DNA of 64,000 nt, from positions 62,001 to 126,000 of the forward strand of contig NZ_JAVJSQ010000014.1 of assembly GCF_040219335.1 (NCBI RefSeq). Direction: 5' to 3'. The notes beneath the pieces were generated by a model, which worked only from the letters and a program-made list of their open reading frames with translations, searched no databases and had not been told where the DNA came from. Shown in pieces: positions 18,934-30,693 of the stretch; position 1 is the first letter of the stretch; each line of letters opens with the position of its first letter. Origin of the DNA: Gimesia sp. Lineage in GTDB: Bacteria; Planctomycetota; Planctomycetia; Planctomycetales; Planctomycetaceae. The translations under genes were made by a program, and so were the position numbers.

Positions 18934-19422
18934 ATGCGATTTTCGCTCGTCGATCAAATTAAAGAACTCGAGAAAGGCAAGTCGATCACGGCTGTCAAAA
19001 ACCTTTCTCTCGCCGAAGAGTATTTGCAGGACCACTTTCCCGGCTTCGCTGTCATGCCGGGGGTACTCATGGTCGAATCCATCGTACAGGCGGGTGCCTG
19101 GCTGATGCGATATACCAATGACTTTCAATACAGCACTGTCCTGTTGAAACAGACCAAGGCCATTCGCTTCAACAGTTTCGTTACCCCCGGCAAACAGCTG
19201 CGGGTTTCGCTCAGCATTCAGAAGTGGGAAGACAACCTCTGCACACTGAAAGCTTCGAGCGAAGTCGAAGGGGAAGCGGCTGTCAGCGGACGAATCGTTC
19301 TGGAGCAGTTTAATCTGGCTGATAAGAACCCGTCGATGGCCGACAAGGATGCAGACCGGATCAAGGATCTGAAGACTCAGTTTGCCCAGCTTTGGAATCC
19401 GGCTAAACAGGTTACCTCCTGA
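18934..19422 (+). CDS. 3-hydroxyacyl-ACP dehydratase, FabZ-like (first of two)
   Basis: A 162-residue hotdog-fold protein. The FabZ active-site pattern is intact: catalytic His in DHFPGFAVMPG and catalytic Glu in VLMVESIVQAG. FabZ removes water from 3-hydroxyacyl-ACP to give trans-2-enoyl-ACP. It begins a plus-strand run with FabG, ACP, a second dehydratase and FabF. The C-terminal ~25 residues (charged, helical) are longer than in minimal FabZ. Confidence 0.87.
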   Translation: MRFSLVDQIKELEKGKSITAVKNLSLAEEYLQDHFPGFAVMPGVLMVESIVQAGAWLMRYTNDFQYSTVLLKQTKAIRFNSFVTPGKQLRVSLSIQKWEDNLCTLKASSEVEGEAAVSGRIVLEQFNLADKNPSMADKDADRIKDLKTQFAQLWNPAKQVTS

Positions 19423-19497
19423 AAGCAGAGAGATCCGGAATACGACTTCTGTCAAAGCACTAACAAATCTTGTTAACTATTTAGATTGGATTGAGGA

Positions 19498-20250
19498 ATG
19501 AAACTGGAAGGAAGAGTAGCGTTGGTAACCGGCGGCAGCCGCGGTATTGGAAAAGCCGTCGTGCAGGCCCTGGCCCGGGAAGGGGCTAAAGTTGCCTTTG
19601 TGTACCGTTCCAGTGCGGAAGCTGCAGAGCAGATCGTCAAAGAACTGGCTGACGAAAACTGTGAAGCCATTGCCATTCAGGCTGATGTCGCCAACAAAAG
19701 CGAGACCGATGCCGTTGTGGAACAGGTCCTCGAAAAATGGGAAAAGATTGACATCCTGGTCAACAACGCCGGTATCATCCGCGACGGTCTGCTGGCCACC
19801 ATGTCTGCTGAAGACTGGCAGGCTGTCATCGACACCAACCTGACCAGCGTCTACAACTTCTCCCAGGCAGTGACACGTCCGATGATGTCAAAACGTTATG
19901 GTCGCATCATCAACATGTCCAGCGTCGCTGCTCACTTCGGTAACGCAGGACAGTCCAACTATGCCGCCAGTAAAGGGGGAATCATCGGATTCACCCGCTG
20001 CCTGGCCACCGAAGTTGCCAAGCGGGGTATCACCGTTAATGCGGTCGCTCCCGGGTTTATTGAAACAGACATGACCGTTGACGTGCGTAATGCCGCCGGC
20101 GATCAGATTAAGAAACACATTCCCGCCCGCCGTCTGGGTCTTCCCGAAGACATCGCTAATGCTGTGCTGTTCTTTGCCAGTGAAGACTCATCCTACGTCA
20201 CCGGTCAGACTATGGCCGTGGACGGTGGTCTGACTCTGGGTGGAATTTAA
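19498..20250 (+). CDS. fabG: 3-oxoacyl-ACP reductase FabG
   Basis: A 250-residue SDR with the full FabG signature: TGGSRGIGKAV near residue 11, NNAGIIRDGLL, catalytic Ser in NMSSVAAHFG, YAASK, and the C-terminus YVTGQTMAVDGG. RDGLL and YAASKGG are characteristic of FabG proper. It reduces 3-oxoacyl-ACP with NADPH. It is followed by a 192-nt spacer containing three hairpins before the ACP gene. Confidence 0.92.
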   Translation: MKLEGRVALVTGGSRGIGKAVVQALAREGAKVAFVYRSSAEAAEQIVKELADENCEAIAIQADVANKSETDAVVEQVLEKWEKIDILVNNAGIIRDGLLATMSAEDWQAVIDTNLTSVYNFSQAVTRPMMSKRYGRIINMSSVAAHFGNAGQSNYAASKGGIIGFTRCLATEVAKRGITVNAVAPGFIETDMTVDVRNAAGDQIKKHIPARRLGLPEDIANAVLFFASEDSSYVTGQTMAVDGGLTLGGI

Positions 20251-20305
20251 TAAGCGTAAAATTCGAAGCAGCTCGTGGCTGTGACGAATCGAGATATTTT
20301 GTTTT

Positions 20306-20425
20306 GTCGACCATTCCGGAATTGGGTCAATTCCGATCGTCGACACGGAAATTGTCAAAACTATTCCTCTCGCCGAATAGTTTTACACAGGCTGGGTCGG
20401 CGGGAATAATCGACCTGCGGGTCGA
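20306..20425 (+). promoter_or_regulatory. Three consecutive stem-loops between fabG and the ACP gene
   Basis: Hairpin 1 (20306-20344) has outer GTCGAC/GTCGAC arms and an inner CGGAATTG-GGT-CAATTCCG stem. Hairpin 2 (20357-20384) is AAAACTATTC-CTCTCGCC-GAATAGTTTT, a perfect 10-bp stem that could act as a weak terminator. Hairpin 3 (20410-20425) is TCGACC-TGCG-GGTCGA, ending about 5 nt before the AAGGAG of the ACP gene. Together they suggest transcript processing, attenuation or mRNA stabilisation between the genes. The function is inference. Confidence 0.6.
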
Positions 20426-20442
20426 AATCAAGGAGTAATTAG

Positions 20443-20829
20443 ATGCCAACTAGAGATGAAATCTTCGATTCCGTTCGTGAAACCCTCGTGGATGCCCTCG
20501 GACTGGATGACGACGAAGTAGTGCCCGAAGCGACCCTGATGGGAGACCTCGGTGCAGAATCCATTGACTTCCTGGACATCGCGTTCCGTCTGGAAAAAGC
20601 ATTCGACATCAAGATTCCCCGTGGGGAACTCTTCCCGGAAAACATTGCTTCTTCCGATTCCGGTTTCGTGAAAGATGGCGAATTCACCGAAGCAGGGATT
20701 GCAGAACTGCGTGAAAAAATGCCACACGCAGACATCGATTCTTTTGCCGACGATCCCAAAGTCGAAAAGATGCAGGATCTGTTCACCGTCGAGATGCTGG
20801 TTAACTTCCTGGATGCCCGTCTGAAGTAA
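20443..20829 (+). CDS. Acyl carrier protein with extended C-terminal half
   Basis: A 128-residue acidic protein. The phosphopantetheine site is GDLGAESIDFLDIAFRLE, with Ser as the attachment residue and ESI in place of the usual DSL. Normal ACPs are about 75-85 residues. Here about 40 residues are inserted after helix III (roughly residues 65-105, including KIPRGELFPENIAS and ADIDSFADDPK) before the final helix (FTVEMLVNFLDARL). The gene follows AAGGAGTAATTAG. Its place between FabG and a dehydratase suggests a carrier dedicated to this cluster. Confidence 0.85.
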   Translation: MPTRDEIFDSVRETLVDALGLDDDEVVPEATLMGDLGAESIDFLDIAFRLEKAFDIKIPRGELFPENIASSDSGFVKDGEFTEAGIAELREKMPHADIDSFADDPKVEKMQDLFTVEMLVNFLDARLK

Positions 20830-20867
20830 GCCAGAGTTATCTCTGATTAGAAAAACTGTCGAATGCA

Positions 20868-20894
20868 GCACAGCTCACTCCGGGTGGGCTGTGC
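20868..20894 (+). repeat. Stem-loop after the ACP gene
   Basis: GCACAGC and GCTGTGC form a 7-bp stem with a 13-nt loop, 38 nt beyond the ACP stop. No U-run follows, so it is not a classical terminator. It may stabilise the ACP transcript, which is often abundant. Confidence 0.45.
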
Positions 20895-20972
20895 CGCTTC
20901 GTCTGATCGAATCGCATTCAGAGCTGTTCGGTCTGCTTTAGCTTTAAGTCACCTGCAATAAGGTTCGCTGAA

Positions 20973-21461
20973 ATGCGCTGGTTCTGGATTGACCGCTTTA
21001 TTGAATTCGAGAGCGGCTCTTACGCCAAGAGTGTCAAAAACGTGACACTGGCCGAAGAGCATCTGCACGACCATTACCCCGGTTTTCCGGTGATGCCCGG
21101 ATCCCTGATGATCGAAGGCATGGCCCAGACGGGGGGAATTCTGCTGGGCGAGATCAATGATTTCGAACACATCGTGATTCTGGCCAAAGTGCCCCAGATG
21201 ACGTTCCACAGCTGGGCCTGCCCGGGAGATCAGCTCATCTATACCGCAAAAATCACCAATGCCGGTGAGGAAGGGGGCGCTGTCGATGTCACCGCCATGG
21301 TGGGAGACCGCCTGGTTGCCGAGGGAAGCATCATCTTTGTCCACCTTGACCAGAGTGATTCCGAATTTGGCAAGATCGACCAGAAAAACTTCGTCTTTTC
21401 CATGAATCTGCTGGGAATTCTGGACGTGGGTCAGGCTGGAACAGGTGAAGAACAGGCTTAG
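20973..21461 (+). CDS. 3-hydroxyacyl-ACP dehydratase, FabZ/FabA-like (second of two)
   Basis: A 162-residue hotdog-fold protein. The active site is present: His in DHYPGFPVMPG and Glu in SLMIEGMAQTGG. It is a clear paralogue of the gene at 18934 (same start region, F-x-E-xx-Y-A/T-x-x-V-K-N). HFPG becomes HYPG and PGVLM becomes PGSLM, so substrate range may differ. Two dehydratases in one cluster could act on different chain lengths, or form a heterodimer as seen in some aryl polyene systems. Both options are inference. Confidence 0.86.
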   Translation: MRWFWIDRFIEFESGSYAKSVKNVTLAEEHLHDHYPGFPVMPGSLMIEGMAQTGGILLGEINDFEHIVILAKVPQMTFHSWACPGDQLIYTAKITNAGEEGGAVDVTAMVGDRLVAEGSIIFVHLDQSDSEFGKIDQKNFVFSMNLLGILDVGQAGTGEEQA

Positions 21462-21636
21462 AGCGGCTATTTTTGAAACCTTGGTATGGAAGCCTTGATT
21501 CCAAATGGGCTACAATAATAATTCATTGATCGAAGCATCAAACTAATTACGGGCTGCAAATCATACTCGCTGGGTCAAACAACACTCTGATTTGCCTGCT
21601 GTTACCAATTTCAATTTAAAACAAGAATTCAAAGCT

Positions 21637-22920
21637 ATGAACCGCCGCGTTGTGATCACAGGTATTGGGGCCATCACTCCTTTAGGGAAAACCGTGGAAG
21701 ATACCTGGAAAGCTCTCCAGGAGTCCAAGTGCGGAATCTCCAACATCACTCACTTTGACGCTTCCAATTTTCCCACCCGCTTCGCAGCCGAAGTCCACGA
21801 CTTCCACCTCGAAGATTATGTCGATAACCTCGACCGCTTTGAATACTCAGGACGCAACATCCGCTACGCCATCGGCGCTGCCACCCAGGCCGTGAAAGAT
21901 TCGGGCATCCTGGACGAAGACTTCGATCCTTCCACTTTCGGTGTTTACCTCGGTGCCGGGGAAGGTCAGCAGGACTTTTACCAGTTCATGAAACTGATCG
22001 CCCAGGCCCAGAATGACGGACACGTCGACCTGGAAAAGTTCACCAAAGCCGGTCTGGAACAGCTGAATCCGCTGTTCGAACTGGAACAGGAACCCAACAT
22101 GCCCGCCGGTCACCTGGCGAGCCTGTTCAATGCCCAGGGCCCTAACCTCAACTGTCTAACCGCGTGTGCCGCTTCCAGCCAGGCGATTGGCGAAGCCTCG
22201 GAACTGATCCGTCGTGGCGATGTCGATATCATGCTCTCGGGTGGTGCCCACAGCATGATTCACCCCTTCGGCGTCACCGGGTTCAGCCTGTTGACGGCTC
22301 TTTCAACGCACAATGAAGATCCGGCCAAGGCATCGCGTCCCTTCGACCGCAACCGCGATGGTTTCGTATTGGGAGAAGGTGCCGGGATGATGATCCTGGA
22401 AGACCTCGAACGGGCTCAGAAACGGGGTGCCAAGATTTATGGCGAACTGGTTGGCTATGGTTCCAGTGCCGATGCTTACCGCGTGACCGACATTCATCCT
22501 GAAGGTCGCGGGGCGATCAAATGTATCAAGATGGCAATGAGCCACGCCCAGCTCAATCCCGAAGACATTCACTACATCAATGCTCACGGAACGAGTACTG
22601 CGGTCAACGATAAAGTGGAAACCCGGGCTATCAAAGGCGCGCTGGGCGATACTGCTTACAAAGTCCCTGTTTCCAGCATCAAAAGTATGATGGGCCACCT
22701 GATCGCCGCAGCAGGCAGCGTGGAAGCGATCACCTGCCTGATGTCGATTCGTGATAACGTCGTGCCCCCCACGATCAACTACGAAACCCCCGATCCGGAT
22801 TGCGACCTGGATTACATTCCCAACGAAGCCCGCCAGCAGAACGTCACGTCAGCACTCTCCAACAGCTTTGGATTCGGTGGTCAGAACATCTCTCTGATCT
22901 TCTCTGAATTCAATGGCTAG
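21637..22920 (+). CDS. fabF: Beta-ketoacyl-ACP synthase II, FabF-like
   Basis: A 427-residue thiolase-fold condensing enzyme. The start is ATG 21637 (RRVVITGIGAITPLG follows directly), not the upstream ATG at 21592. The Cys-His-His triad is visible in NCLTACAASSQAIGE, NAHGTST and MMGHLIAAAGSVEA. It catalyses chain elongation with malonyl-ACP. It closes the cluster. No malonyl transferase, enoyl reductase or thioesterase is next to it, so those activities must come from elsewhere. Confidence 0.93.
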   Translation: MNRRVVITGIGAITPLGKTVEDTWKALQESKCGISNITHFDASNFPTRFAAEVHDFHLEDYVDNLDRFEYSGRNIRYAIGAATQAVKDSGILDEDFDPSTFGVYLGAGEGQQDFYQFMKLIAQAQNDGHVDLEKFTKAGLEQLNPLFELEQEPNMPAGHLASLFNAQGPNLNCLTACAASSQAIGEASELIRRGDVDIMLSGGAHSMIHPFGVTGFSLLTALSTHNEDPAKASRPFDRNRDGFVLGEGAGMMILEDLERAQKRGAKIYGELVGYGSSADAYRVTDIHPEGRGAIKCIKMAMSHAQLNPEDIHYINAHGTSTAVNDKVETRAIKGALGDTAYKVPVSSIKSMMGHLIAAAGSVEAITCLMSIRDNVVPPTINYETPDPDCDLDYIPNEARQQNVTSALSNSFGFGGQNISLIFSEFNG

Positions 22921-23134: not shown

Positions 23135-24166
23135 GTGAATTGGTTGTTCTGGTGCCTGTTGATGCTGATCGGCATCGAGTTAATCATCCAATATTGTATT
23201 ATCCGGGCTGCTTATCCCGTCCTCTATGCGCCCCTGCCAGATCGTTTTCAGTTGGCCGGTACGCTCAGTTGCCTGCCGGACAAAGACTCCGGGATTCAAA
23301 TTGAGTCAGTCTCCTTTCCTTCCGTCGACGGCCTGACACTGCGAGGTCTGCTGGCGCTTCCGGCGCAATCCCCACCGCGGGGAGTCATTTTGTTCTGCCA
23401 CCCGTTCCGACTGTCGGGACAGATTGGACTCTACCAGTGTCGCGGCTTACTGGATGCTGGTTTCGCGGTGTTTACGTTTGACTTTCGCAATCATGGCGAG
23501 AGCGACCAGGACCCGAATTACAAGTCCGTGCACTGGCTGTCGGAACACGAACTCAATGATACCCGCGCAGCCATCAGATATCTCCGCCAGCATGCGGAAC
23601 TCAAAGAGCTTCCTCTCGGCTTACTGGGGATGTGTCGCGGCGCAGCAGCGGCCCTCGCGGTTGCGACCAGAAAACCCGAAATCCAGTACATCGCCTGCGA
23701 AGGCGCGTTTATCAACGAATCCCTGTTCCTCGATCATGCGATTCGCTGGGGCGAACGTTTTCTGCCACGCCTGTTCATTCAGCTGGTTCCAACGTGGGAG
23801 GTGACCCGGGCATTTCGCATTATGGTCTGGTTCACTCAACGGCGTCAGGGGTGTCGCTTCTTTAATCTCAAACCCCTGCTCCGCAATCTGAAGAATAGAA
23901 AACTGCTGTTCTTCGTCGGAGAGAAAGATCAGAGTGTCGTGCCTTGCATGTCAGATCAGATCATCGGCCGCATCCATCACTCTGAGACCACGCTATGCTC
24001 ACTCCCAGGGGCGGTGCACAACGCCGGCCGTTTCGCTCAACAGGAACTTTACGATCAACGGCTCGTTGAGTTCTTCACACAGATGGTCGAGACGCAAGAG
24101 AAAACCACCTCTGACGCTGCTGATCCTACAGTGAAATCGGAATCTGCGCTCGTTTCACACCAGTGA
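23135..24166 (+). CDS. Membrane-anchored alpha/beta hydrolase with cysteine nucleophile
   Basis: A 343-residue protein. The start is GTG 23135 with GGGAG 6 nt upstream. An N-terminal hydrophobic helix (LFWCLLMLIGIELIIQYCII) is followed by an alpha/beta-hydrolase fold: strand VILFCHPF, FTFDFRNHGESD, nucleophile elbow LGMCRGAAAAL, acid GEKDQSV, and His in PGAVHNAGR. The elbow carries Cys instead of the usual Ser (GxCxG), as in dienelactone hydrolases. The substrate is unknown. It may act at the membrane. It follows fabF by 214 nt, so a link to lipid metabolism is possible but unproven. Confidence 0.82.
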   Translation: MNWLFWCLLMLIGIELIIQYCIIRAAYPVLYAPLPDRFQLAGTLSCLPDKDSGIQIESVSFPSVDGLTLRGLLALPAQSPPRGVILFCHPFRLSGQIGLYQCRGLLDAGFAVFTFDFRNHGESDQDPNYKSVHWLSEHELNDTRAAIRYLRQHAELKELPLGLLGMCRGAAAALAVATRKPEIQYIACEGAFINESLFLDHAIRWGERFLPRLFIQLVPTWEVTRAFRIMVWFTQRRQGCRFFNLKPLLRNLKNRKLLFFVGEKDQSVVPCMSDQIIGRIHHSETTLCSLPGAVHNAGRFAQQELYDQRLVEFFTQMVETQEKTTSDAADPTVKSESALVSHQ

Positions 24167-24491
24167 ACCGGGGCAATTCGGCAACCAAAACGGCGGCAGA
24201 TCAACAGCAGTGCGAGCCTTATTCTTTATGCATCTCTGCCTATTTGACAGAGATTAAGCGTGTCCTCCCTGGAAAATTAACAGTTGAAAACGCTGTCATC
24301 AAAATGCAATAATCATATAACCACCGCTTGTGTAAGAACTTAACACCACTAGTCTGAATACAACTGACATTGGTATCTCATTTGCTTATGTTTTCGCTGT
24401 CGAATCACTATTTGCCCCATCCCGATTTTGAGATAGGGTTAGCATAAATCTCCCCCGACAATGGGGCTCTGTCTTTCCGGTGAGCTGTGTT
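24167..24491. other. Intergenic region before the response regulator
   Basis: No gene is seen. A TTGACA at about 24246 resembles a -35 box but lacks a convincing -10 partner at the right spacing. It probably contains the response regulator promoter. Confidence 0.4.
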
Positions 24492-24911
24492 ATGGTCAAA
24501 GCCAGATCGCAAACTCCTTATCAATTACTGATTGCTGATGACGACTCCGGTTTCCGTGAAGTCCTCAGAGAGGTATTGGCCCCTTACTTCCAACTGTTTG
24601 AGGCGGAATCGGGAGAACAGGCGATTGAGCTTGTGGAACAGACACACGTCGACATTGTTCTACTCGACATGCATATGGACATTCTGACAGGTTTGGAAGC
24701 CGTCCGAATTTTGAAACAGATCAATGCACTGCTCCCCTGCATTCTGATTACCGCCGATGCAACAGACGAATTGCGTCAGGATGCCAGCGCCGCGAATGCC
24801 TACGAAGTACTGTCTAAACCTGTCAAGCGACAGGAGTTAGTCACGACCGTTTCACATGCTCTCGTCGACACCTACCAGGATCCCAACGTCCCTTTCTGGC
24901 TGGGTAACTGA
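24492..24911 (+). CDS. Single-domain response regulator (receiver only)
   Basis: A 139-residue CheY-like receiver domain. It has the acidic pair in IADDDSG, phospho-acceptor Asp in VLLDMHMD, Thr in LITADAT and Lys in LSKPVKRQE. No output domain is present. The start is ATG 24492, with GGTGAG about 8 nt upstream; a GTG at 24480 is the alternative. No histidine kinase is adjacent. It may act by protein-protein contact in a phosphorelay. Confidence 0.88.
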   Translation: MVKARSQTPYQLLIADDDSGFREVLREVLAPYFQLFEAESGEQAIELVEQTHVDIVLLDMHMDILTGLEAVRILKQINALLPCILITADATDELRQDASAANAYEVLSKPVKRQELVTTVSHALVDTYQDPNVPFWLGN

Positions 24912-25108: not shown

Positions 25109-26440
25109 ATGTCATATGTACCAACCCGCTTTATTCATGCTGCGAACCTGCGCCTCGATCATCAGCCGCAGGGAGTCGCTACCATTTCGGAAGCAGCGCA
25201 GCATCTGCTCGAAGACTGCACGCTGAACTCTTTTGCCAATCTGGTTCAGTGTTGCCTCGACCAGAGTGTCGACTTCCTGCTGCTGACGGGAAATACGTTC
25301 GTCGAATCAGATCACAGCATCCGTGCCCGTATCGCACTCATCGATGGCTTTCAAAAGCTGGCCGCACACAATATTCCGGTACTGGTCATTCCCGGTGAAT
25401 CAGATCCCCTCAGTGCCTGGGACCTGCAATATCACTGGCCCGAGAATGTCACCTTCTTCTCCCCCGGCGATCACGAACGGTTCGACATTCTCCGCGAAAC
25501 GGAAACGGTGGCAACTCTGCAGCTCTTCGGATCTGCGCCGGCGAAAACCTACCAGACACTGAAACTGAAACAGCGGAATCAACTGTTTAACAAACAGAAC
25601 CAGCGTCCCCTGTCAATCGGCTGCATGACGCCCGCTTCCTCCACCACCGTTGAGGAATCCGCGACCTTCGAACTCGATTCTTTCTCGCTGGCCGTCCCGG
25701 ATGCTTTCCAGAGCGACGATGACAGCAGCGAAGTGGCCGTGGATTACCTTTCGCTCTCCAAGGGGACCAGTCACCATACGTTTGAAATGCAGCCTGGTGT
25801 CGCTCATCATCCGGGAACGGCCCAGGGATTGAACTTTGGTGAGTACCAGAAAAATGGCGTCACGCTGGCCATTGTCAGTCCCGAAGCGCCGCTGGAACTC
25901 AGACGAATCAAAATCGCCCCGGTACGCTGGCTCCCCGTTGAGCTGGAACTGGAGCCACACACGTCAACAGCACAACTGCGACAGCAGATGAAATCCGCAC
26001 TGTTATCGCGGAAACCAGGCAAACACGAACGACTCTGGATGGTCTGCTGGAAACTGTCCGGCAGTGAATCCCTGCTCGATGCACTGGAAGACATCACACA
26101 ACAGGCGGAGCTAATTTCTGCACTGCAGCAGGAACTCAAACAGCAACAACTCCCCCAACTGGAGCACACATTCCAGCTGGAATTCATCCCCATTCAACAG
26201 CACCGGGAATCGGGCACCGAACTGACCGATTCCTATCTGCGACAGGTGGAATCCTTTCGCACGCGCTTTGATGCCCCCCTTGAGCGACTGATCTCCCGCG
26301 CCGGTCATCTCGACCCGCAGTGGCAGCAGCGGTTAACGTCCATCGCTGCAGAACTCGATGCAGCGCAGATCTTCAACACAGCCATCCGCAACGGACAGTC
26401 CTGGCTCAACATCTCGACGGATGAGGAACATCACTCATGA
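25109..26440 (+). CDS. Mre11/SbcD/YhaO-like phosphoesterase-fold protein with lost catalytic motifs
   Basis: A 443-residue protein following GGAAAGGAG. The layout matches Mre11/SbcD/YhaO proteins, but each metal-binding motif is altered. D-x-H at residues ~13-15 is N-L-R (HAANLRLD). GD is GN (LLLTGNTF, ~residue 60). GNHD is GESD (VIPGESDP, ~residue 97). The late GHxH region reads LSLSKGTSHH. The usual HPGSxQGLxFGE-like motif survives (HHPGTAQGLNFGEYQK). Enzyme activity is therefore unlikely and a structural or adaptor role with the next gene is likely. The last four bases overlap the ATPase start (ATGA), indicating tight coupling. Confidence 0.85.
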   Translation: MSYVPTRFIHAANLRLDHQPQGVATISEAAQHLLEDCTLNSFANLVQCCLDQSVDFLLLTGNTFVESDHSIRARIALIDGFQKLAAHNIPVLVIPGESDPLSAWDLQYHWPENVTFFSPGDHERFDILRETETVATLQLFGSAPAKTYQTLKLKQRNQLFNKQNQRPLSIGCMTPASSTTVEESATFELDSFSLAVPDAFQSDDDSSEVAVDYLSLSKGTSHHTFEMQPGVAHHPGTAQGLNFGEYQKNGVTLAIVSPEAPLELRRIKIAPVRWLPVELELEPHTSTAQLRQQMKSALLSRKPGKHERLWMVCWKLSGSESLLDALEDITQQAELISALQQELKQQQLPQLEHTFQLEFIPIQQHRESGTELTDSYLRQVESFRTRFDAPLERLISRAGHLDPQWQQRLTSIAAELDAAQIFNTAIRNGQSWLNISTDEEHHS

Positions 26441-29400
26441 AAATCACTCGCATTCACGTCGACCGGTTTGGAAACTGGCATGATCTGGATCTGGCCTCCC
26501 TGCAGGCGGGAATCAATGTCTTTTACGGTCCCAATGAAACGGGCAAGTCGACCCTGATGCGCATGATCCGGGGCATCCTTTACGGATTTCGTCCCGAGGA
26601 AAATCGCGAACAGGCACGCGTACCGGATTCAATCCCCTGGTCTGCACTGCTGGACATCAAACATCAGGGACAGCGGTACGAGATCCGTCGCCAGTCCAGA
26701 GCCGGCGGTCGCGGACAGTTCTCCTTCCAGGCAGAAGCACGTGGTATTTCCAGCCAGGAACTACTGAGCTCACTCCACGCGGGAGTCAAAGAGAGCGTTT
26801 ACGAGAATGTATTCGCCATTGGTCTGAACGAACTGCAGGAGCTCGGTACGTTGCACGGCGAGCAGGTTGCCCGCCACATCTATGGTCTTTCCCTCGGCCC
26901 CGAAGGTCAGGCGATTCTCGATGTATCACAGCAGATCTCAGCCAACAGACAGACCTGCCTGAGCCACAATCTTAAATCGGGCTCACTGGTCGACCTGTAT
27001 CGTAAGTTGGATGATGTCAACAGCAAGCTCACCAGCTTAAAGCAACAGTCGCAGCGATTCTTTCAGCTGTCTAACGAACTCCAGCAGCTCCGCGAAGAAT
27101 CCGACAGTCTGAAGAAACGAAAGTCAGGCCTGCAGTACCAGATCCGCGGACATCGTTTCCTGGAACGGGTCTTCAAGCCCTGGCAGGAAGTTCAGACCCT
27201 GCAGCACAAACTGAAACAATTGCCCGTTGTCCATGACTTCCCCGTCGATGGCATCGCTCAACTTGATGAATATGATCGTAAAATTAAACAAACCGAATCC
27301 CGGTTAATCGAAGTCAAAGCCGAAATCAAACGGCTTCGCAAGGAAATCGAACAATACGAATCGGACAATGAGCTGCTGGAACATGCAGCCCAGATCCAGA
27401 GCCTGGCAGACCAGAAAGACTGGATCGCTTCCCTGGAGCAGGATTTCCAGGAAGGTCAGACCGAAGTCCGCAGGCTGGAACAGATTCTCGAACAGTATCG
27501 TCCTCAGAACCTGTCGGTCGATGCCCTGGCACACATTCAAACCACGCCGGACAATAATCAGCGACTGATTCAGGCAGCCCGTGAATACCGGATGGCGTCA
27601 CACAAACGCAAACAGGCTCACTTGCGTTATAAGAAGGCCTCCCGCCGCTACCAGAAAAAACTGGCTGAGTTGCAGGATAAATCGGGACGCCTGCTCAATG
27701 GACAGTCCATCGAACAGGAACTGAAACGAGCCCGCGAACGCATGCAGCACCTTGAGCGACTCAGCCAGCTGCGGTTCCGTGAATCTGAATTTTCGATTCG
27801 CCAGGAAGCCGTCCGCGAACAACTGGATCGTCTGCAGACCCACTCCCGCATTCCGGGTTGGGCCAAAAAAACACTCTTCGGTTTTGCCATCGCCGGCACG
27901 CTGCTATTACTGGCAGGGATCTGGCGTGGCGTCACCGATGCCTCCCTGGTCGGTCTTATCTACTGTCTGACCGGCCTGTTTCTGGGGGGACTTACCTGGG
28001 CGATCAAGAAACATTTCGAAATCGATGTCAACGACCAGGCGGATGAGCTGCAGGATGAAAACTGGGCTCTCGACGTTCACCTCCGAGAAACGCGTCAGGA
28101 AATCGACCGCCTGCTGGAAGACGAGTACTTCTCTCTCAAGCTGGTCAAAGAAGGCCATTCGCTGAGCAACCCTCGTCATCGCGAACAGGTACCCGCGCTA
28201 AGCTTCAATGACGAGAATGTCCTGCGAACTGAGCTGCTGCACGACCTGGCATTCAAAATCTCAGAGCTGGAACAGCTGCAGGCTTCGCAGGAACAGGTTC
28301 AGAAAACCCGACAGCGACTGGTGCGACTTCGCAACCGGTCGCAGGAAATCCAGCGCGAGTTCAGCAGCAAGCGTCATGAATGGTGCGAATGTCTGAAACA
28401 GCTGGGCCTCACCGAAACACTGAAAATTGAAGACGCCTTCCGCATGTGGCACCAGGTTTCCAATGCCAGCCTGTATGCCACCCAGCGCGAACAGGAACTG
28501 AGACGAATTAAGCCACTGGGTGACATCGTCAACATGTTCTACCGCCGCGTACGGGAACTCGGTCTGAAACTGAACCGGAATCAGCAACAACTCGATCGCC
28601 CGTTTGAAGTGGTCGGGGAATGGGAACGCGAACTTGAACTGCTCTCGGGACAGCGGAAAGAGCGGGCTCGACTGCGGAAAGAAGAAAAGCGTCTGCGTCA
28701 GGAAGCAGATACCCTGCAGCTCTCCCTCGAAGAGTTGAAGCATCAGCGTTCGTCTCTGCTGATTCAGGGCGGTGCCGCTAATCGCGAGGAATTCCTGCAG
28801 CGGGCGAACTCAATTGATGAGCGTCTGCAACTGGAGGAACTGCTCGCTGATGCCCAGGCGGAACTCGAGAAAATCAGTCGCAGCGAACAGGAAATGGCTA
28901 TCGTCGAAGAGGATCTGCTCAACTTCGATCTGCAGCAGAATACCGACCACCTGGACATGCTCAACCTGGAACTGGAAGACATCGAACGTGATCTGGTCAG
29001 CGTCGCCGAGAACATGGGGCGACTTAAACAAGACTACCAGAATGCGAAAACGGATCGTTCTTCCGCACAACTGCGCTTCCAGCGGGAACAGATTCAGGAA
29101 CAGATCCGGCAGGCAGGGTCTCTCTGGTTCTCGACCGAACTCTCCGCCGTTGGCATCAATCAGCTGCGTTCTGAATTTGAACGAACCAGTCAGCCCGAAA
29201 CGCTGGCGATCGCCTCAGACTACCTGCGTCAGCTGACCAACGACAAATACACCAACATCTGGACTCCGCTCGGCGAGCAGTTCCCCAAGATTGACGACGA
29301 TCAGGGGCACACACTGACGGTCGATGAACTCAGTAGCGGCACCCGTGAGCAGTTGTTTCTGGCAATCCGCCTGGCGATGGTAGAACGCTTCCGGAACCAG

Positions 29401-30693
29401 GGAGTACAGCTCCCCATGATCCTGGATGATGTCCTCGTGAATTTCGATCAGGAACGGACCCGGGCTGCGATCAAAACGTTGAATGCCGTTGCGGCCAAGG
29501 GACAGCAGATCCTGCTCTTCACCTGTCACCTGCACCTGACGCAGCTCTTCGGAGAACAGGATATCACCGCCGTTCGCCTGCCGGCTTCCGATGTGGCGCG
29601 CAGTCACACCCCCGAAGTGATCCCGACAACCGTAATTGAAGAAGTTGTTGATGAGGAGATCGAAGAGGACGAATATTCGGAGCTCACAGAGGAGCCGACC
29701 TATGAAGAACCAGCCACGCTCGAAGTACTCTCTTACGAGCTCGACTGGTCAGATCCGCTGGACTGCCTTTCCGGGTTGAGTGACTCACAGATGCAGTCGC
29801 TGACGGAAGCGGATATCTGGACGATCCGCGATCTGCTTACCTTCTCTGCCGACGAGATCGCTGACGGGGTCGACGACGACAGTCTGACCGCTGGTCTGAT
29901 CTTCGAATGGCAGAGCCAGGCTCGACTGGCTGCCTGTATCCGCGGTCTGGCACCCACTCACGCCTTGCTGCTTGTCTCCTGTGGCATCACCGAACCCAAC
30001 GAAATTGCGGAGATGTCGTTTGCGGAACTCTGGTCGCTGGTGGAAGCCTGCCAGGATTCAACAGACATTCCACAGCAGTCTGTCATTACAGAAATCCGTG
30101 TGGAACAATGGATCCTCGGCGCACAACAGGCGCGTACGTTTACGCCAGAAGCCTCTGAGCCCCTCTCACAAACAGAGCAGGAACCGCATCAGGAAAAACG
30201 GGAATATCGGCACGATGGTTCACACCCCACCCCCGATTCACAGGGACCGAACATTCCCCCCTTTTACCTGAATCGTTCGATGCCCGTTGAAGATGCGCCT
30301 TCCATCGGACCGAAGACAGCCGAACGCCTGGAAGCGGCAGGCGTCTTTACCGTGAATGATCTGCTGGAATGTAATCCCGAGTTCGTTGCGAACAAACTCA
30401 ACGTGCAGCACATCAGAAAGCAGACCATCCGCAAATGGAAGAAACAGACGAAGCTGGTCTGCTGTATTCCCGGAATCCGCGGACACGACGCCCAGATTCT
30501 TGAAGGGTGCGGCCTGACCGAACCCGAAATAATCGCCCGGGCGATTCCTCAGGATCTGCTCGGGAAGGTCAATTCGTTCCTCAAAACCAAAAAGGGGCAA
30601 CGCATCCTCAGAGACGCCAAACATCCCGATCTGGAAGAAGTCTCTGACTGGATTCACTGGTCACAGAAAGCCCGCAAGCTGCAGACCGCCTGA
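26437..30693 (+). CDS. YhaN/SMC-like ATPase with two C-terminal DUF4332 modules
   Basis: A 1418-residue protein. Walker A is GPNETGKST (residues 31-39). Long coiled coils (about 180-470 and 540-930) flank a membrane-like hairpin at ~478-524 (AIAGTLLLLAGIW, then LVGLIYCLTGLFLGGLTWA). The second ATPase half has the ABC signature LSSGTREQ (~964) and Walker B MILDDVLVNFD (~992). After an acidic linker come two DUF4332 (helix-hairpin-helix-like) modules at about 1098-1225 and 1280-1415; the second has SIGPKTAERLEAAGVFTVND. YhaN-type proteins are Rad50-like partners of YhaO. The modules suggest nucleic-acid binding. It forms an operon with the degenerate Mre11-like gene. Confidence 0.88.
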   Translation: MKITRIHVDRFGNWHDLDLASLQAGINVFYGPNETGKSTLMRMIRGILYGFRPEENREQARVPDSIPWSALLDIKHQGQRYEIRRQSRAGGRGQFSFQAEARGISSQELLSSLHAGVKESVYENVFAIGLNELQELGTLHGEQVARHIYGLSLGPEGQAILDVSQQISANRQTCLSHNLKSGSLVDLYRKLDDVNSKLTSLKQQSQRFFQLSNELQQLREESDSLKKRKSGLQYQIRGHRFLERVFKPWQEVQTLQHKLKQLPVVHDFPVDGIAQLDEYDRKIKQTESRLIEVKAEIKRLRKEIEQYESDNELLEHAAQIQSLADQKDWIASLEQDFQEGQTEVRRLEQILEQYRPQNLSVDALAHIQTTPDNNQRLIQAAREYRMASHKRKQAHLRYKKASRRYQKKLAELQDKSGRLLNGQSIEQELKRARERMQHLERLSQLRFRESEFSIRQEAVREQLDRLQTHSRIPGWAKKTLFGFAIAGTLLLLAGIWRGVTDASLVGLIYCLTGLFLGGLTWAIKKHFEIDVNDQADELQDENWALDVHLRETRQEIDRLLEDEYFSLKLVKEGHSLSNPRHREQVPALSFNDENVLRTELLHDLAFKISELEQLQASQEQVQKTRQRLVRLRNRSQEIQREFSSKRHEWCECLKQLGLTETLKIEDAFRMWHQVSNASLYATQREQELRRIKPLGDIVNMFYRRVRELGLKLNRNQQQLDRPFEVVGEWERELELLSGQRKERARLRKEEKRLRQEADTLQLSLEELKHQRSSLLIQGGAANREEFLQRANSIDERLQLEELLADAQAELEKISRSEQEMAIVEEDLLNFDLQQNTDHLDMLNLELEDIERDLVSVAENMGRLKQDYQNAKTDRSSAQLRFQREQIQEQIRQAGSLWFSTELSAVGINQLRSEFERTSQPETLAIASDYLRQLTNDKYTNIWTPLGEQFPKIDDDQGHTLTVDELSSGTREQLFLAIRLAMVERFRNQGVQLPMILDDVLVNFDQERTRAAIKTLNAVAAKGQQILLFTCHLHLTQLFGEQDITAVRLPASDVARSHTPEVIPTTVIEEVVDEEIEEDEYSELTEEPTYEEPATLEVLSYELDWSDPLDCLSGLSDSQMQSLTEADIWTIRDLLTFSADEIADGVDDDSLTAGLIFEWQSQARLAACIRGLAPTHALLLVSCGITEPNEIAEMSFAELWSLVEACQDSTDIPQQSVITEIRVEQWILGAQQARTFTPEASEPLSQTEQEPHQEKREYRHDGSHPTPDSQGPNIPPFYLNRSMPVEDAPSIGPKTAERLEAAGVFTVNDLLECNPEFVANKLNVQHIRKQTIRKWKKQTKLVCCIPGIRGHDAQILEGCGLTEPEIIARAIPQDLLGKVNSFLKTKKGQRILRDAKHPDLEEVSDWIHWSQKARKLQTA

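Follow-up and report, generated by a model that had tools for sequence, protein, structure and literature searches.

SbcCD and Mre11-Rad50 each pair a nuclease with an ATPase, and whether Mre11-Rad50 complexes act mainly as cutters or as DNA-holding machines has usually been probed with engineered nuclease-dead mutants. In the nuclease-deficient SbcCD(H84Q) the ATPase activity is reported to be down by only about 15% (PMC6265447), so that cutting and ATPase are separable. Among YhaO/YhaN pairs, the Sphingobium plasmid pSCLO_3 encodes a YhaO-like "DNA repair exonuclease" and a "YhaN family protein" (WP_020819392/WP_020819391) in the same gene order as the locus described here, with an adjoining ATPase. 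A conserved, monophyletic lineage of inactivated enzymes has been described for archaeal B-family DNA polymerases (PMC2527604).

The window is the whole stretch of Gimesia DNA that was analysed (64,000 nucleotides), and its source genome (G000, genus g1) was 7.93 Mb and 99.99% complete. As in SbcCD and Mre11-Rad50, a nuclease-type gene is paired with an ATPase gene and the canonical relatives have profile homology to Mre11 (1II7), but the window protein lacks the metal ligands and falls below the sbcd cut-off, and the window ATPase lacks CxxC. Compared with YhaO/YhaN pairs, the window orthologues match canonical planctomycete relatives at the superfamily level, whereas the Sphingobium and Microvirga pairs keep GD, GNHD and GHxH and have ATPases without an apex hairpin. 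Canonical planctomycete pairs (L098, L099, L123, L215, L217-L220, L225 and L234) and the Deinococcus actinosclerus and Natrinema zhouii plasmid pairs share with the window pair a hairpin ATPase, adjacent genes and the same larger clade; they differ in their intact motifs, with 7/7 ligands in the planctomycete pairs, and GD, GNHD and GHxH in those of Deinococcus and Natrinema. The archaeal polymerases differ in being another enzyme, with an active paralogue proposed as the partner (PMC2527604).

On balance, the gene is best read as encoding a pseudonuclease, conserved as a subunit of a YhaN/Rad50-like ATPase that is probably anchored in the membrane; it may serve as a DNA clamp or tether and not as a cutter. 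The parts are of known kinds; what appears to be new is a family-wide pseudonuclease with a single origin in the class, combined with a membrane-hairpin ATPase. A prior description of this combination was not found among CC-licensed PMC papers, which is no proof of absence. Annotation pipelines presumably could mistake proteins of this type for repair exonucleases or metallophosphoesterases.

The 443-residue protein and its lost metal ligands

The open reading frame at 25109-26440 (+) starts with ATG and overlaps the ATPase reading frame (26437-30693) by 4 bp; an overlap of the two genes had been mentioned in the first-pass annotation of this DNA. Its features are as follows.

25109-26440, + strand: degenerate YhaO/SbcD/Mre11-like protein (pseudonuclease), 443 aa (open reading frame; hhalign of orthologues to the canonical family)
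25145-25153, + strand: motif I, N13-L14-R15 replacing D-x-H (Mre11 D8, H10), by alignment
25289-25294, + strand: motif II, G61-N62 replacing GD (D49), by alignment
25394-25405, + strand: motif III, G96-E97-S98-D99 replacing GNHD (N84 and catalytic H85), by alignment
25628-25630, + strand: motif IV, T174 replacing His (H173), by alignment
25757-25768, + strand: motif V, S217-K218-G219-T220 replacing GHxH (H206, H208), by alignment
25808-25843, + strand: HPGTAQGLNFGE, counterpart of canonical PGNxQGR, by alignment

The Mre11 ligands, which we take to be D8, H10, D49, N84, H173, H206 and H208 with H85 as the catalytic histidine, were located in the window protein by alignment to the canonical/1II7 register. 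All seven ligands and the catalytic histidine were replaced (D8>N13, H10>R15, D49>N62, N84>E97, H85>S98, H173>T174, H206>K218 and H208>T220). This bears out the earlier claim that every metal-binding motif is altered, and the non-catalytic motif HPGTAQGLNFGE, described there as retained, is present. The same annotation had taken a GTSHH stretch for the equivalent of GHxH, which was wrong, as GHxH aligns with SKGT; the histidines of that stretch (H222/H223) vary within the genus (GTQRHTF, GTQSHTF, GTQRQTF and GTQRYTF). The loss of the fourth-motif histidine (LLH to CMT) had been overlooked. Judged from these replacements, nuclease activity is very probably absent from the protein.

Single-sequence searches placed the protein only remotely. 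A Pfam scan gave no match to Metallophos, NCBIfam sbcd (TIGR00619) matched at E 0.0031 (17.3 bits, under the cut-off of 77.65), and phmmer against the PDB matched Mre11 weakly (E 0.038). A match to PF04042 (DNA_pol_E_B, E 0.031) was below cut-off and was set aside as an analogy only. Comparison of profiles with hhalign gave a probability of 100 and E 7e-47 between 19 window-type orthologues and 20 canonical YhaO-like planctomycete proteins; the 331 aligned columns span the phosphoesterase and cap regions. The window-type profile also matched that of an intermediate group of 5 rows (E 5e-50, 404 columns), and the canonical profile picked up Mre11 of P. furiosus (1II7; E 5e-20) with all five motifs in register (D-x-H, GD, GNHD, LLH and GHxH). 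By these profiles the protein is firmly indicated to be a member by descent of the SbcD/Mre11/YhaO superfamily. An AF2 model of it, built from a 2-sequence alignment, had a pLDDT of 42 and a pTM of 0.28, too poor to reveal the fold.

Distribution and ligand retention among relatives

Relatives were typed, at first by eye from the motifs and afterwards by the profile that scored best, as A1 (window-type orthologues), A2 (a sister group) or A3 (canonical). The window protein was matched in 157 of the 170 genomes of its family, some of the weak matches being canonical copies, and an A2-type copy above 230 bits was found in 100 genomes outside the family and in G064, G065 and G088 inside it. A search of genome contigs returned one relative (L002), 57% identical. 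The ligand count covered 126 distinct sequences (65 A1, 37 A2 and 24 canonical from the class). The 65 A1 genes read were all from the window's family, among the 157 genomes with a match. Of the 37 A2 sequences, 34 came from the class but outside the window's family and 3 from within that family; they were sampled from 33 of the 100 outside-family genomes, G214 (171 bits) and 3 family genomes.

Among the A1 sequences no ligand was kept in 39/65, one in 23/65 and two in 3/65, and the catalytic histidine column of GNHD held His in 14/65. The first-pass annotation had proposed checking whether the ligand changes are fixed in ATPase-paired orthologues, and in the 65 family orthologues read they are; intact ligands at shifted positions, which it had named as evidence to the contrary, were not seen in the aligned motif stretches of these 65. 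The A2 sequences kept between 0 and 5 of 7 ligands (5 in 9/37); by alignment, Asn84, His85 and His206 were kept in 0/37. All canonical copies from the class (24/24) had 7/7 ligands and the catalytic histidine.

For a test of retention, the 42 columns with at least 95% conservation among 45 canonical proteins were divided into 7 ligand columns and 34 others, with the catalytic His set aside. Taking columns as independent, retention in A1 was 6% for ligand columns vs 56% for the 34 others (one-sided Mann-Whitney p 0.001), and p was 0.037 against the 12 polar non-ligand columns. In A2, on the same assumption, retention was 43% vs 70% (p 0.03), with p 0.10 against polar non-ligand columns only. 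Since ligand columns were retained less than other conserved columns, the loss is preferential, and most clearly so in A1. Non-ligand invariant columns were eroded too (canonical H178, D255, E338 and W197), and so the earlier statement that the scaffold is kept stands only in part.

A repurposed site, which would catalyse another reaction or hold one metal through other residues, was considered in the light of these counts. An altered one-metal site is thinkable in A2 because up to 5/7 ligands are kept there, and the replacements Asn/Arg/Asn recur in A1 (N in 40, R in 38 and N in 43 of 65). However, the residues invariant in A1 (19 rows: H10, D17, G61, D99, P235, G236 and R273) mostly match canonical structural residues, no new conserved His/Asp/Glu cluster was seen by eye, and H222/H223 of the window protein are variable within the genus, so that repurposing is regarded as unlikely.

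Canonical copies in the same genomes bear on a second alternative, in which the protein would regulate an active Mre11/SbcD paralogue through mixed dimers or competition for the ATPase. A canonical copy above 400 bits was present in 66 of the 170 family genomes, and there is a precedent in the inactivated archaeal PolB, which was suggested to act together with an active paralogue (PMC2527604). In the window genome, however, no canonical copy was found, both matches to the canonical profile being pieces of the window gene, and among 17 same-genus genomes only G032 had one; the 24 canonical genes read from the class have their own downstream ATPase. With no canonical copy detected in the window genome and the genus mostly without one, regulation of an active paralogue is quite improbable. 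Two other SbcD-profile matches in the window genome were other phosphoesterases, from a reading of their open reading frames.

Beyond the class, every genome in the phylum sample with a match to the A1 profile was read (34 genomes, 36 genes). Of these genes, 32 kept 7/7 ligands, 30 of them with the catalytic histidine and two (L238 and L242) without it. The exceptions were L245 (6/7), L247 (5/7), L246 of G706 (1/7) and L250 of G571 (1/7). No ATPase was picked up beside L246 or L250 in the stretch read, G706 being only 54% complete.

The ATPase partner, gene pairing and neighbourhood

The reading frame that overlaps the pseudonuclease gene has the following features.

26437-30693, + strand: YhaN/Rad50-like AAA_27 ATPase, 1418 aa, in 4-bp overlap with the pseudonuclease (Pfam AAA_27 58.2 bits, cut-off 22)
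26527-26553, + strand: Walker A GPNETGKST, intact (motif scan)
27877-28005, + strand: hydrophobic, transmembrane-like hairpin at the coiled-coil apex, aa 481-523 (hydropathy scan, at least 1.6)
29329-29430, + strand: ABC signature LSSGTREQ (29329-29352) and Walker B PMILDD (29413-29430), intact (motif scan)
29431-30693, + strand: C-terminal tail of 420 aa with two DUF4332 (helix-hairpin-helix-like) stretches (Pfam DUF4332 E 9e-35)

AAA_27 had 7 matches in the window genome, of which the window ATPase was the best (63.9 bits); two of the others, in frames of 448 and 570 aa, were barely above the cut-off (26 bits). Walker A was present in 23/24 and Walker B in 24/24 full-length A1 partners, and each in 21/24 A2 partners. 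The coiled-coil apex of Rad50 is the site of the zinc hook, and no CxxC hook was found at aa 200-900 of the window ATPase. This lack was common to all 55 ATPases scanned and is therefore no mark of dead pairs, the name used here for pairs whose nuclease gene is of the ligand-losing type A1 or A2.

A hairpin was scored where the maximum 19-residue hydropathy within aa 231-700 was at least 1.6. By this measure it was present in 39/40 A1 partners (the 40th at 1.58), 28/31 A2 partners and 3/22 partners of canonical genes in the class (L098, L099 and L123). Outside the class, it was present in 8/15 plus 4/7 of the ATPases long enough to judge. Judged from hydropathy alone, there is a good probability that the window ATPase is inserted in the membrane. 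The link between ligand loss and hairpin is imperfect, because the ATPases at the A2-type loci L152, L153 and L154 (G064, G088 and G087; GPNG Walker A, 936-1170 aa) have no apex hairpin and that of L247, with 5/7 ligands, reaches a hydropathy of 1.2. L152-L154, from members of the window's family that carry an A2-type dead copy in addition, are possibly a further derived pair.

DUF4332 was found in 4/4 other same-genus ATPases scanned (2, 2, 1 and 1 stretches) and in 0/5 family ATPases scanned from other genera (L164, L175, L202, L173 and L182). All 13 other same-genus ATPases read had 246-420 aa after Walker B, and among 23 full-length A1 partners of other genera this length was 59-68 aa in 21 and 106 and 127 in two. 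Most full reads of A2-partner ATPases (e.g. L126, L138 and L149) had about 140-370 aa after Walker B, and Pfam gave no match on the tails of L126 and L138.

An ATPase gene lay downstream of 101 of the 102 distinct dead genes, the 102nd (L017) having 1 base left in its contig. The pairing was read by motif scan in 93/102 (at most 425 bp apart; 41/93 with an overlap of exactly 4 bp) and by profile in 8 more. Among 13 finite dN/dS comparisons of dead genes, 10 gave 0.06-0.15. The four that involved the window orthologue gave 0.06, 0.09, 0.11 and 0.12; of the nine other pairs, seven gave 0.08-0.20 and two, which were close pairs with few synonymous changes, gave 0.27 and 0.40, one further dead pair being saturated. 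Two canonical pairs gave 0.08 and 0.17.

These values were set against the idea of a decaying gene kept only through linkage to the ATPase. The pseudonuclease does evolve faster than its neighbours (at L193/L194, about 53% identity for the pseudonuclease, 70% for its ATPase, 84-85% for the response regulator and 95% for the ketosynthase), but its open reading frame is retained over the whole family, the pair is kept at 101/101 decidable loci and dN/dS is low, on which ground decay was rejected as hardly credible. The ligand loss is fixed in the 65 family orthologues read and monophyletic on the trees, and the gene evolves under purifying selection in company with that of the ATPase, all of which fits an inactive partner. 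The first-pass suggestion of an inactive structural or regulatory partner of the ATPase is thus supported in part, as regards a probably inactive partner, and regulation of an active paralogue is unlikely.

A ketosynthase, a response regulator, a CinA-like gene and a glycosyltransferase adjoined the pair in each of the 13 further genomes of the genus that were read, and the hydrolase at 23135 was kept near it in 11/13. The response regulator (24480-24911) is a single-domain protein just upstream of the pair. At 7 other family loci the pair was kept in 7/7 and, with nine window genes searched including the pair, none of the remaining genes was matched.

An anti-phage defence pair, in which a Lamassu-like sensor ATPase would act with a dead nuclease, was weighed against this neighbourhood. 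The ATPase weakly matched PADLOC LmuB (E 1e-12, no curated cut-off), but PADLOC, run on the two proteins, gave no match for the pseudonuclease, and one peptide pattern, scanned against viral contigs, brought up no relative. A defence island is judged improbable because the gene order is fixed, in the window and the 13 other same-genus genomes, and the prevalence in the family is wide, some of its 157 matches being through canonical copies.

Elsewhere in the window genome, two PDDEXK_1 open frames (1130 and 1185 aa) lie close together and are probably AddAB-like, so that end resection would not need to depend on the pair. A small fatty-acid/polyketide-like cluster, labelled by eye, occupies 18934-22920 of the window, with two FabZ-like genes, a FabG-like gene, an acyl carrier protein and the ketosynthase.

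Phylogeny and proposed role of the pair

Near-identical rows were thinned before tree building (129 to 118 in the nuclease tree and 120 to 108 in the ATPase tree). Nuclease trees built without the ligand columns recovered A1, A2 and A1+A2. In the 118-row tree A1 and A2 formed one clade (91 rows, SH-aLRT 99) adjoining canonical L098, L099 and L123. In a tree of 55 chosen rows, 30 of them dead, the dead clade (100/98) was nested in a hairpin-type clade (100/99), and one change each explains "hairpin" (L153 left out) and "dead". With 10 distant rows added (65 rows) the dead clade (100/98) and the hairpin-type clade (100/100) were recovered, and the dead clade had no resolved sister group. Ligand loss in the dead clade has one origin within the class.

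The tree of ATPase heads united the A1 partners (98) and requires 2 changes for the dead set; the partners of the dead clade fell together with the Deinococcus and Natrinema ATPases and the partners of L098, L099 and L123 in a single group supported at 99. No outside-class exception joined the dead clade in the 65-row tree, where L250 fell inside the L234 group and L246 beside L247. From these placements, L246 and L250 are separate ligand losses within the larger hairpin-type clade. The simplest order would place the hairpin before the loss of the site. This order holds if the root lies among the hairpin-less canonical rows, on which it depends because the outgroup, canonical proteobacterial rows, is not one group in the trees.

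In the mechanism proposed here, the di-metal centre would have been erased in a YhaO/SbcD/Mre11-type subunit while the ATPase motifs stayed intact, and the hydrophobic hairpin at the apex should anchor the YhaN-type ATPase in the membrane. Like Mre11/SbcD, the pseudonuclease would most likely still bind DNA and the heads of the ATPase, and a place as its head-binding subunit is likely. It may then couple ATP binding and hydrolysis to the holding or remodelling of membrane-associated DNA, be it ends, forks or nucleoid, with no cutting; a role as a DNA clamp or tether is put forward tentatively, and the pair might instead organise forks or the nucleoid or act as a scaffold in repair.

A more speculative scenario covers the history of the whole group. 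A clade of the class could have turned an Mre11-Rad50-type end processor into a nuclease-free, membrane-anchored, SMC-like machine that would clamp or tether chromosomal DNA to the membrane. The anchor would have come first, in a lineage that was still active, and the cutting site would have been lost once in the class and at least two more times elsewhere in the hairpin-type branch. The Gimesia ATPase would later have gained its helix-hairpin-helix tail, with no active SbcD-type copy found beside it in the window genome.

The separation of cutter from holder, if so read, was made here by evolution and has lasted throughout a bacterial family; sister families supply graded intermediates, and intact relatives are there for comparison. 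The natural series of intact pairs with a hairpin, partly eroded pairs and fully erased pairs makes a structural role of the Mre11 subunit testable and ties it to membrane anchoring of the ATPase. In a genome of another class (G486), two canonical nuclease/hairpin-ATPase pairs were observed in one 16-kb stretch (L234).
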